Shown one piece after another: positions 9,672-12,800 of a stretch of 38,836 bases of DNA. The stretch spans positions 1 to 38,836 of the IMG/VR virus record IMGVR_UViG_3300044623_000664; one strand, 5' to 3'. Position 1 is the stretch's first letter. Each line of letters opens with the position of its first letter. The DNA is from a virus. The translations under genes were made by a program, and so were the position numbers. The notes under the pieces are model-generated. The model worked only from the letters and a program-made list of their open reading frames with translations. It was not told the DNA's origin and did no database searches.

Positions 9672-10012
9672 TCGGACACGCTGGCGTCAAAACCGCCCTT
9701 GAAAAAATCGACGATGGCGTCGTGATCATGCGCGCCGTCAATGCGCAGCTCCCAACGATTGCCGTTGCTGTAGCTGAGACTGTCGGTATTCAGGACTTGA
9801 CACGCTGTCATCGAACCGTCGTGGTAGATGTAGTTGACATGTTCAGCGTCGACGCCTGCAAACAGCTGACACGCTGCGCTGTCATCTTCTGACATCCATG
9901 GCCCTTGTTCGTCTTGCCAATCGTCCCATGAGCCACGGTTGACACGTGTCAGGGTGACGGTCACCGGGTAAACGCGGGTTTCATTGTTGACTATGACTGC
10001 AAGCGTGATCAT
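9668..10012 (-). CDS. Hypothetical protein, 114 aa
   Basis: ATG 10012 has GGAG about eight bases upstream. The protein begins with a beta-rich stretch (ITLAVIVNNETRVYPVTVTLTRV), then a Trp/Asp-rich part (WDDWQDEQGPW), and ends acidic. I do not recognise a family. It is coupled to the 247-residue gene by an ATGA overlap, so the two may work together. Confidence 0.75.
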   Translation of the reverse strand: MITLAVIVNNETRVYPVTVTLTRVNRGSWDDWQDEQGPWMSEDDSAACQLFAGVDAEHVNYIYHDGSMTACQVLNTDSLSYSNGNRWELRIDGAHDHDAIVDFFKGGFDASVSE

Positions 10013-10030
10013 GTTGTTTACTCCACTAGT

Positions 10031-10048
10031 GAGGCGCCTAGGCGCCTC
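10031..10048. other. Perfect 18-bp palindrome in the leftward operon leader
   Basis: GAGGCGCCTAGGCGCCTC is its own reverse complement. It lies between the 25-residue micropeptide and the 114-residue gene on the leftward transcript. It could fold as an RNA hairpin or be the site of a dimeric DNA-binding protein. No U-tract follows. Confidence 0.6.
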
Positions 10049-10058
10049 GGGTTGACGA

Positions 10059-10136
10059 TCAGTCTATGGTCAGGCCGGCGATTGTCAGCGCAGCTGCGCC
10101 GATCAGGATCAGGGACCAAATTACGTCTAATGTCAT
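10059..10136 (-). CDS. Membrane micropeptide, 25 aa, first gene of leftward small-gene operon
   Basis: ATG 10136 is preceded by a purine-rich AGAGAG about six bases upstream. After MTLDV the peptide is a run of Ile, Leu, Ala and Gly with one Trp, then ends TID, so it forms a single transmembrane helix. It lacks the overlap support of the other micropeptides, so confidence is lower. Confidence 0.45.
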   Translation of the reverse strand: MTLDVIWSLILIGAAALTIAGLTID

Positions 10137-10250
10137 GGTGTCTCTCTGGGTTGCGTCGCTGCGGGATCGCTGCGACATGTTGGTAGTGTAACGTGCTTTG
10201 CAGCGTGTAGCGTATGCCCCTACTGTTAACAGGGTCAGCGCCCTGATAGC
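10137..10250. other. Gene-free upstream region of the leftward small-gene operon
   Basis: No reading frame is convincing here. The sequence contains a direct repeat TCGCTGCG (spaced by GGA) near 10157-10175 and a 10-bp palindrome CTGTTAACAG near 10224-10233. A promoter for the operon starting at 10136 is expected, but I find only a weak TACACT (minus, 10190-10185) without a good -35. Confidence 0.5.
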
Positions 10251-10651
10251 GCGGTAGTCGCGGCGGTAGTCATGCGGTAGTCAGCGCGGTAGTCATGAGG
10301 CGTGCGGGGCGTGTAGTCATATAGTCATGCTGTTGTTCTATATCGGTAGATGTCTTGCTACATAGTGTGTTACACGTATTGTTATAGGGGTTGCCGGATA
10401 GTCATGACTACCGTGGCTATCCGACTACCGCGCGCCCCGCGCGACGATAGCGAGGCGCATCGGACCCGGATAGTCATGACTACCGCGACTATTGGGCTAC
10501 TTCAGCAATTCAAACCCATGACTACCGCGACTATCACCGGGCATGCGTGCGCGCGGGGTCCAATCTGCTATGGCTACGGCATGACTACCGCCGCGCAGCG
10601 CTTCGCGCAGCGCTTCGCGCAGCGCTTCGCGCGCCATGACTACATGACTAC
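10251..10651. repeat. Oppositely oriented iteron-like arrays around an AT-rich core (candidate replication origin)
   Basis: The left side carries GCGGTAGTCATG-type copies (10251, 10263, 10274, 10286, and partial copies at 10313 and 10321). The right side carries the complement CATGACTACCGC (10475, 10517 and 10580 exact; 10403 with one change; partial copies at 10635 and 10643). Three right copies extend to the 18-mer CATGACTACCGYGRCTAT (10403, 10475, 10517). Between the arrays, about 10328-10387 is AT-rich in an otherwise GC-rich region. TAGTCATGACTA palindromes occur where the two orientations meet (10399, 10471). The layout resembles iterons flanking an unwinding region; an operator array is the alternative. 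Confidence 0.75.
10593..10628. repeat. Three tandem 12-bp GC-rich repeats
   Basis: GCGCAGCGCTTC is repeated three times without interruption, with a partial fourth copy. Each unit contains a near-palindromic AGCGCT core. It lies inside the right iteron array between the copies at 10580 and 10635. Confidence 0.85.
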
Positions 10652-10690
10652 TGGCCGCAGCCGCTGGCGCCATGTTGCAGTGCAGCATAT

Positions 10691-10780
10691 TTGCCTAGGC
10701 AATGGTTGCTTAGGCAATGGTTGTCTAGTCAATGGTTGCCTGGGCAATGGTTGTCTAGTCAATGATTGCTTAGGCAAGGG
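10691..10780. repeat. Six tandem 15-bp repeats with palindromic cores upstream of terS
   Basis: Units start at 10691, 10706, 10721, 10736, 10751 and 10766. The consensus is TTGCCTAGGCAATGG. The first 12 bases of unit 1 (TTGCCTAGGCAA) form a perfect palindrome; the others keep the dyad with one or two changes (for example TTGTCTAGTCAA). Six dimer-type sites 110-200 bp before the packaging genes suggest either a terminase (pac) recognition site or a repressor/activator array. Confidence 0.85.
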
Positions 10781-10877
10781 GGGAGTAGGGCCCGCCGCCG
10801 GCCGGTCACGCTGGCGAAGGGTCCGCGAACAAAATTTTTTCCTACGCCATGCCGTAACACCCTTCGTAGCAACAATC

Positions 10878-10889
10878 AAGGTATACTCC
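10878..10889 (+). promoter_or_regulatory. Candidate -10 element of the late operon (TATACT)
   Basis: TATACT (10882-10887) ends seven bases before the terS ATG, so transcription would begin at or one base before the start codon. No Shine-Dalgarno sequence is present, which fits a leaderless message. No recognisable -35 lies upstream, so an activator or phage factor might be needed. Weak evidence on its own. Confidence 0.35.
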
Positions 10890-10894
10890 CGCGC

Positions 10895-11305
10895 ATGAAA
10901 TCCCTACCGCTAGAAATTAGGGAGATCAGGGCGACTGAGGCGCGACTGCAACAGATTTACGAAGCAGCGCGCTTGGGCCTAAAAGGCGACAGTTTGGCTC
11001 TGGCCTCCGGCATGCTGCCAGTTGAATACAGGCGGCTGTGTCAGCTAGACCCCATCGCCGAGATGGCGGCGCAAAAAGGCAAAGCCGACGCTGAGATGGC
11101 GCATGCAGGCAAACTGTCCGAGGCGTCGATGAACGGCGACGCCAAGGCCAGCCTGGCGATCCTTCAGCATGTCCACGGTTGGACTGCCAAGCAAGAGATC
11201 AGCGTTGATGTCTATCAGAAGATCAGCGTCATCACCGCGCTTGAAGAAGCCCGTGCTCGTCTAACCTACGTCGAAGATGCAACTCCCAATCTACACATCC
11301 GCTGA
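10895..11305 (+). CDS. terS: Terminase small subunit
   Basis: 136 residues. It sits directly before and overlaps the large-subunit gene by 29 bases, the usual arrangement. The N-terminal part (RLQQIYEAARLGLKGDSLAL, then EYRRLCQLDPIAEM) is helical and HTH-like, as in TerS DNA-binding domains. The middle is helical (DAEMAHAGKLSEAS) and AKASLAILQHVHGW matches a motif often seen near the end of TerS proteins. It would recognise the packaging start site and recruit TerL. The start lacks a ribosome site. Identity rests on position and fold pattern. Confidence 0.8.
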   Translation: MKSLPLEIREIRATEARLQQIYEAARLGLKGDSLALASGMLPVEYRRLCQLDPIAEMAAQKGKADAEMAHAGKLSEASMNGDAKASLAILQHVHGWTAKQEISVDVYQKISVITALEEARARLTYVEDATPNLHIR

Positions 11306-12800
11306 AGAGCAGCGCCTGATGGTCGAGTTGTGGTCACCCGCGCTAGCGGATGACCCCGAAGCGTTTGTACGTTTTGTGTTTCCTTGGGGGCAGAAGAACA
11401 CCCCGCTGGCGCAATTCAAAGGCCCGCGCAAATGGCAACGCGAGGTGCTCAACGACATCAAGACGCACATTCAGCGGAACAAGGGGAAGGTTCAGATGGA
11501 CACCCTACGGGAAGCGGTCTCCTCCGGTCGGGGTATTGGCAAGAGCGCCCTAGTATCTTGGCTGGTGCTGTGGATGCTCACCACGCGCATCGGCGGGAGC
11601 GTAGTGGTCAGCGCCAACTCTGAGAACCAACTGCGGTCGGTGACCTGGGCAGAACTGACCAAGTGGGCGGCGATGGCGATGCACTCGCACTGGTGGGAAG
11701 TGAGCGCCACCAAGCTGGTGCCGGCGAAGTGGATCACTGAACTGGTCGAGCGTGACCTGAAGAAAGGCACGCGCTACTGGGCCGCAGAGGGCAAGCTGTG
11801 GTCAGCCGAGAACCCTGACAGCTACGCGGGCGTCCACAACCAGGACGGGATGATGCTGATCTTCGATGAGAGCAGCGGCATACCAAACCCGATCTGGGAA
11901 GTGGGGGCGGGGTTCTTCACAGAGAACACGCCCGACAGGTACTGGTTTGCCTTCAGCAACCCGCGTCGAAACGAGGGGTACTTCTTTGAGTGCTTCAACG
12001 CCAAACGGGCGTTCTGGAACGCCCGGAGCGTAGACGCTAGGACGGTCGAGGATACGGACAAGGCGGTGTACGACCAGATCATCGCGGAGTATGGCGCGGA
12101 CTCATCCCAGGCCAAGGTGGAGGTGTACGGTGAGTTCCCCAGCGCAGGCGAGGATCAGTTCATCAGCCCAACGGTGGTAGATGAGGCGATGAAGCGGCCA
12201 CGGTACAAGGACAGTTCGGCGCCAGTGGTCATAGGGATCGACCCGGCACGGGGCGGCGCTGACTCGACGGTCATACTGGTGCGCCAAGGCCGGGACATCG
12301 TGAGCATCAAGCGGTACTCGGGCGAGGACACTATGACCATCGTCGGTCGGGTGATCGACGCCATCGAAGAGTTCAAGCCGGTGCTGACGGTGATTGACGA
12401 AGGTGGGCTGGGGTACGGTATACTTGACAGACTGAACGAACAACGGTATAAGGTACGCGGAGTGAACTTTGGCTGGAAGGCCAAGAACTCGGTGATGTGG
12501 GGCAACAAGCGGGCTGAGATGTGGGGCACGATGAAGGACTGGCTGCGAAGTGCATCCATACCCGAGGATCGGCAACTCAAGGCAGACCTGGTGGGGCCAA
12601 CCAAGAAGCCTAACTCTAGCGGTACAATCTTCTTAGAAGGCAAGAAGGAAATGCGCTCAAGAGGTCTTGCCAGTCCTGATGCTGCTGACGCGCTGGCGGT
12701 GACGTTCGCGTTCCCGGTGGCGCATCGGGAGTACACGGACAAAACTCCGCGCAGAACCTACGCGCCGCAAGGCGTCCTAACTAGCTGGATGGGATCATAG
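11277..12800 (+). CDS. terL: Terminase large subunit
   Basis: 507 residues, the packaging ATPase and nuclease. Walker A is SSGRGIGKSALVSW and Walker B with the catalytic Glu is GMMLIFDESSGIP. The C-terminal RNase H-like nuclease shows its acidic residues in IGIDPARGGADST, VLTVIDEGG and SPDAADALAV. All key motifs are present and the length is normal. It ends TAG at 12798-12800, sharing a base with the portal GTG. It pumps DNA into the prohead through the portal and cuts concatemers, partnered by TerS. Confidence 0.97.
   Translation: MQLPIYTSAEEQRLMVELWSPALADDPEAFVRFVFPWGQKNTPLAQFKGPRKWQREVLNDIKTHIQRNKGKVQMDTLREAVSSGRGIGKSALVSWLVLWMLTTRIGGSVVVSANSENQLRSVTWAELTKWAAMAMHSHWWEVSATKLVPAKWITELVERDLKKGTRYWAAEGKLWSAENPDSYAGVHNQDGMMLIFDESSGIPNPIWEVGAGFFTENTPDRYWFAFSNPRRNEGYFFECFNAKRAFWNARSVDARTVEDTDKAVYDQIIAEYGADSSQAKVEVYGEFPSAGEDQFISPTVVDEAMKRPRYKDSSAPVVIGIDPARGGADSTVILVRQGRDIVSIKRYSGEDTMTIVGRVIDAIEEFKPVLTVIDEGGLGYGILDRLNEQRYKVRGVNFGWKAKNSVMWGNKRAEMWGTMKDWLRSASIPEDRQLKADLVGPTKKPNSSGTIFLEGKKEMRSRGLASPDAADALAVTFAFPVAHREYTDKTPRRTYAPQGVLTSWMGS

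Follow-up and report, generated by a model that had tools for sequence, protein, structure and literature searches.

Tandem operators of the host MarR type upstream of the terminase genes of a freshwater phage, a possible decoy for host repressors

Comparative analysis of a stretch of viral DNA (IMG/VR virus record IMGVR_UViG_3300044623_000664, positions 1 to 38,836; henceforth the window, 38,836 nucleotides), from a phage described as freshwater, points to a bacterial regulatory element in multiple copies just upstream of the terminase genes. Judged by its occurrence in bacterial genomes, the unit of a six-fold tandem repeat at this place is very probably the operator of a host MarR-family repressor. 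On balance, we favor the view that the array is a multimerised host-operator decoy, which would titrate host repressors during infection.

The window has a phage P22-like gene order, with DNA polymerase, a primase-type protein, terL, portal and major head protein recognizable by PHROGs. The gene for the terminase large subunit, terL (11277 to 12800, plus strand), matches phrog_2 (E 3.6e-43), and that for the small subunit, terS (10895 to 11305, plus strand; 136 aa), is assigned by its position directly upstream of terL. The product of terS had no match in Pfam or PHROG searches, and a fold search with TerS returned no significant match, the best being a phage protein (phBC6A51) and the PaP3 small terminase, both non-significant. 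We took the ATG at 10895 as the start of terS, instead of a longer TTG-initiated frame from 10766. About 880 bp of intergenic DNA separate this ATG from the leftward small genes (start at 10012). Read from left to right, they comprise converging iteron-like repeats, an array of CGCGCAGCGCTT, a single ATGTTGCAGTGCAGCAT palindrome, the six 15-mers, then a G-run block and finally the start of terS. Seven of the small leftward proteins were tested, and none matched MarR or another regulator.

The array of six MarR-type operators (10691 to 10777, full repeats 10691 to 10780; no strand assigned) is built of 12-bp cores at 15-bp spacing, with units starting at 10691, 10706, 10721, 10736, 10751 and 10766 and cores, in order, TTGCCTAGGCAA, TTGCTTAGGCAA, TTGTCTAGTCAA, TTGCCTGGGCAA, TTGTCTAGTCAA and TTGCTTAGGCAA. 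The original prediction, made from this DNA alone, had described six abutting, regularly spaced 15-bp units, and this description holds: in 300 dinucleotide shuffles of 10001 to 10900 the longest comparable run was two units. Finer details assigned to the units at that time fared less uniformly. The linker TGG is found in four of them, but unit 5 has TGA and unit 6 GGG, the latter being the beginning of the conserved G-run. Likewise, the palindromic dyad ascribed to every unit is perfect in unit 1, but units 2 to 6 each lack one of the six pairs. The symmetric placing of changes had been read as a sign of selection, but in TTGTCTAGTCAA the two changes, although at partner positions (4 and 9), place T opposite T and break the dyad; these changes are not compensatory. 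The same asymmetric unit, TTGTCTAGTCAATGA, is found letter for letter ahead of a Comamonas granuli marR gene.

Several lines of evidence connect these units to MarR operators. They have the palindrome TTGCC-N2-GGCAA or its family equivalent, and the same sequence and spacing are seen at bacterial marR promoters. Unit 4 is identical over 13 bp to site I of E. coli marO, TTGCCTGGGCAAT, although marO comprises a pair of sites 35 bp apart at the marRAB promoter, and the six phage units are spaced at 15 bp where no promoter was found. When 84,980 genomes were searched with a two-unit pattern, three matches came up, two of them directly before MarR-family genes of Comamonadaceae and the third, in Bradyrhizobium, with no clear marR neighbour. 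When up to two mismatches were allowed, the doublet was recovered in 34 of 301 genomes of the family (reversed controls, 0), in a DNA-first search that used a phage-derived pattern; in all 30 of the loci examined a MarR ORF had the doublet at its 5' end, and the five ORFs tested that neighbour such loci encode outer-membrane efflux, HlyD or ABC transporter proteins.

Because this retrieval relied on the phage-derived pattern, we also searched protein-first, starting from the MarR orthologue, which is present in 93 of 201 genomes of the family. At 27 of the 30 best loci (Burkholderiaceae) a TTG-N6-CAA doublet with exactly 15-bp spacing lies beside the start codon, against a shuffled expectation of about 0.05 such doublets per set, and the consensus of these host doublets, TTGCCTAGGCAA, is phage unit 1. 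A first matrix and a first substitution test, both partly circular in that their host sites had been retrieved with the phage-derived pattern, were discarded in favor of the protein-first test. With the matrix from the upstream regions of MarR orthologues, the six phage units score 17.5 to 20.4 (host median 17.2), corresponding to the 54th to 100th percentile of host cores; no other site in the window scores above 12.4. Unit variants in the phage family stay within the changes tolerated by the hosts, and random sets were as good in 2 of 5000 trials of this inner-position substitution test, which counts related units as independent. The operator match, from which the host assignment derives entirely, suggests a host of the Comamonadaceae/Burkholderiaceae type.

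Among the closest known counterparts of the array are the double operators of Burkholderiaceae marR (EmrR-like) genes (e.g. loci L098 and L099), which share its core, its 15-bp spacing and overlapping TGN linkers. However, the hosts normally have two units at the marR start, with three or more in a single one of 301 chromosomes (a triple beside its own marR), whereas phages of the TerS family carry 2.7 to 11.7 copies away from any marR. This comparison of repeat number among related phages, proposed in the original prediction, also shows that copy number is labile and that several close relatives are devoid of a MarR array; five of six of those retain a site for a second regulator, PhaR.

Such a site flanks the array in the window as well. 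Within the palindrome ATGTTGCAGTGCAGCAT (10672 to 10688; no strand assigned) lies TGCAGTGCAGCA, an exact fit to the PhaR consensus TGCRNYGCASMA derived from footprints, and identical to a listed phaZ3 site (PMC6201568). The pattern ATGYTGCANTGCARCAT occurs in 31 of 61 Burkholderiaceae genomes (reversed controls, 0), and many of these host sites adjoin phasin genes, at whose promoters the operator is found. Known PhaR operators adjoin phasin or depolymerase genes, while the phage site adjoins the late operon. In viral contigs, 18 of 80 PhaR-pattern loci among the matches listed are from the TerS family, and another two from the TerL family.

To the left of both operators, the iteron-like repeats (10250 to 10651; no strand assigned), in which an AT-rich core has GTAGTCATG to its left and CATGACTAC to its right, form a candidate origin. 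Their palindrome was rejected as a host operator: GTAGTCATGACTAC, with one mismatch, was found in 2 of 61 host genomes against about 10 for the reversed control, and this lack of enrichment makes it a negative control for the host-operator searches. The iteron word varies even among phages with near-identical TerS (TGACTAC, TGACCCAC), and more distant phages have TTGCCTAC, TTGTCCAC or TGACAAT, a turnover that suggests a fast-changing initiator specificity. Read as phage-specific replication iterons, which an initiator would bind, the six 15-mers fail on their presence at host marR promoters; the separate GTAGTCATGACTAC repeats fit replication iterons better. Between iterons and operators, at 10592 to 10632, are 3.4 copies of the 12-bp CGCGCAGCGCTT.

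On the other side, the array runs into the G-run block (10778 to 10840, plus strand; GGGGGGAGTAGGGCC...GGTCACG...CGAACAAAATTTTTT). Relatives of TerS are frequent in viral contigs (301), and a block of the form GGGGGG..AGGGCC..GGTCACG..CAATTTTTT, of near-constant length, lies upstream of terS at 66 of 81 loci (51 distinct sequences), where it is kept while the flanking repeats differ; a search for conserved RNA structure in it found none. Among 59 distinct relatives with the block, 46 have a site of one of four types within 90 bp upstream of the G-run (MarR 13, PhaR 25, TetR-like 17, Fur 4), compared with 0 of 59 for reversed motifs and 19 of 1254 windows drawn at random from these loci, a count that describes this set and is no independent test, as the four motifs were picked after these sequences had been viewed. 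The TetR-like class comprises arrays of the TetR-operator-like palindrome GTTAGTTAGTGCTTACTAAC at about 23 to 25 bp spacing upstream of terS (L027, L057, L059, L072 and others). Its motif AGTKAGTRCYYACTAAC was absent from 151 Burkholderiaceae and could not be tied to a host regulator, with one-mismatch matches in 18 of 185 genomes of the class and 13 of 200 of the order that were no clearer than reversed controls and had no regulator nearby. Four phages (L066, L071, L076, L079) have a near-consensus Fur box, AATGATAATCATTCTCAT, 25 bp ahead of the G-run, assigned from the established Fur consensus. In yet others (L028, L032, L033, L044, L045, L048, L053) the place upstream of terS is taken not by operator arrays but by long microsatellites rich in GC, for example (CCTG)n and (GACCGGCT)n. 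In the relatives L069 to L079 a small ORF between the G-run block and terS encodes a PqqA-family peptide (Pfam PF08042, E 6e-11).

MarR-type arrays are also present in four or five contigs that are unrelated by TerS, TerL and portal, at 1631 in L328, 490 in L336, 10677 in L337, 7010 in L333 (a weaker case) and 3100 to 3300 in L095, and such arrays are therefore not tied to terS or the G-run. The units of L328, which according to PHROGs encodes a TerS and a TerL of its own, score 21.5, 16.0 and 21.5. L095, which is 110 kb long and was recovered in the two-unit scan, has several MarR-type palindromes at irregular spacing; six of its ORFs had no PHROG match, and its phage nature rests on IMG/VR. 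No MarR-like ORF was found at any of these five loci. Other matches to a triple pattern (L326, L327, L329, L330, L332, L338 to L340 and L342), with poor or mixed scores, were set aside as chance or coding repeats; the match in L335 scores 11.8 to 14.8.

Sequence evidence of this kind supports the operator identity, the host match, the multimerisation and the recurrence in other phages, and from it we infer occupancy of the sites, effective titration and a benefit to the phage. The array is very probably a multimerised operator of a host MarR-family, EmrR-like drug-efflux repressor at native 15-bp spacing, with one PhaR operator beside it. As phage DNA replicates in the infected cell, the six sites would become available in many copies, which would bind the host repressor and titrate MarR from chromosomal promoters; the host regulon would then be derepressed without any phage protein, including efflux and, via PhaR, polyhydroxybutyrate-granule genes. 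We consider this the most likely function because no promoter was found at the array, which offers several host-quality sites away from one, because the copy number is expanded relative to the hosts, and because similar arrays are found elsewhere in other contexts. Against it stand the fixed position of the operators close to the G-run, which a pure decoy would not need, and the absence of the MarR array from several close relatives. Furthermore, Fur is abundant, so that the single Fur box of sister phages would titrate it poorly, and autoregulated repressors would partly offset titration.

That fixed position is the main argument for two other functions. In the first, which we regard as unlikely but the strongest of the competitors, host MarR (or PhaR, Fur and TetR-type regulators in sister phages) bound beside the G-run would control a phage promoter or transcription through the origin, allowing the phage to read host physiology. 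The recurrence of four operator-like types at this place and the ligand-sensing character of the repressors concerned are consistent with such a gate. However, unrelated phages have such arrays without a G-run, and the promoter scan of the region found no promoter overlapping the array. The candidate -10 box of terS, TATACT (10882 to 10887, plus strand), read by eye near the start codon, lies 105 bp downstream of the array end and had no sigma-70 match in the scan. Of the earlier proposal that a cooperative operator gates the late operon, the operator itself is upheld, as MarR-type and with native 15-bp double-operator spacing, but the gating is unproven.

The second function, which we consider rather improbable, is that of a roadblock or insulator, in which DNA coated by repressor would separate the candidate origin from the packaging/late region and stop forks, transcription or a packaging motor. 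Contiguous 15-bp operators could cover about 90 bp with protein without a gap, and they are fixed in position between iterons and G-run, but many relatives have a single operator or GC-rich microsatellites at that place, and the unrelated arrays sit in other contexts. Still less probable is a functionless array, a chance acquisition from the host that slippage enlarged in an intergenic region tolerant of repeats: labile copy number and the quite different repeats of some relatives, such as the microsatellites described above, would accord with this, but the units retain host-like operator quality, sites of the types bound by several host repressors are found repeatedly at that place, and MarR-type arrays recur in unrelated phage contigs.

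The remaining proposal, that the repeats are a pac site recognised by TerS, is prompted by their place directly upstream of terS and terL but is very improbable, as they are not conserved together with TerS: in phages with 97-100% identical TerS (L011, L012, L016, L018, L020, L024) they are replaced by unrelated ones (12-bp CGGTCGGCC-type, CCG, GCCGTCTGG), the TerS-family alignment is 66-93% identical over all repeat types, a conserved block adjoins the repeats and the unit appears to be a MarR operator. The ends of four near-complete contigs, which are weak evidence, fall at four different places, with the array at none. The G-run block is probably a better candidate than the repeats for a pac, cos or origin element, because it persists where the repeats turn over. 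The operator reading would correct a natural but wrong interpretation of repeats beside terS.

Clustered binding sites are thought to lower the free amount of a DNA-binding protein at E. coli datA (DnaA), at iteron loci of plasmids and phages such as incA, and on multicopy marO plasmids. Phages are also known to use host repressors, as with LexA in CTXphi or coliphage 186 and Fur at stx1. A decoy array as proposed here would differ from these systems in target and layout: the former concern replication initiators or laboratory constructs, whereas the phage array would aim at host metabolic repressors; the latter likewise pair a host-encoded repressor with a phage-borne operator, but have few sites at phage promoters, in contrast to an array at which no promoter was found. 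A literature search with narrow terms, mostly of open-access papers, found no phage-borne host-operator array.

Studies of how phages take over their hosts usually look to proteins; if the decoy reading is true, an array of operators like this one would be a protein-free way of changing host expression, invisible to gene annotation and scaling with phage copy number. More tentatively, environmental phages might generally reprogram their hosts without proteins by means of host-matched operator decoys (MarR-type, PhaR, Fur, TetR-like) that evolved repeatedly in unrelated phages. The grammar of such operators could offer a clue to the hosts of uncultivated phages, instead of CRISPR spacers. The array in the window suggests that a phage may sequester the gene switches of its host or put them to its own use.
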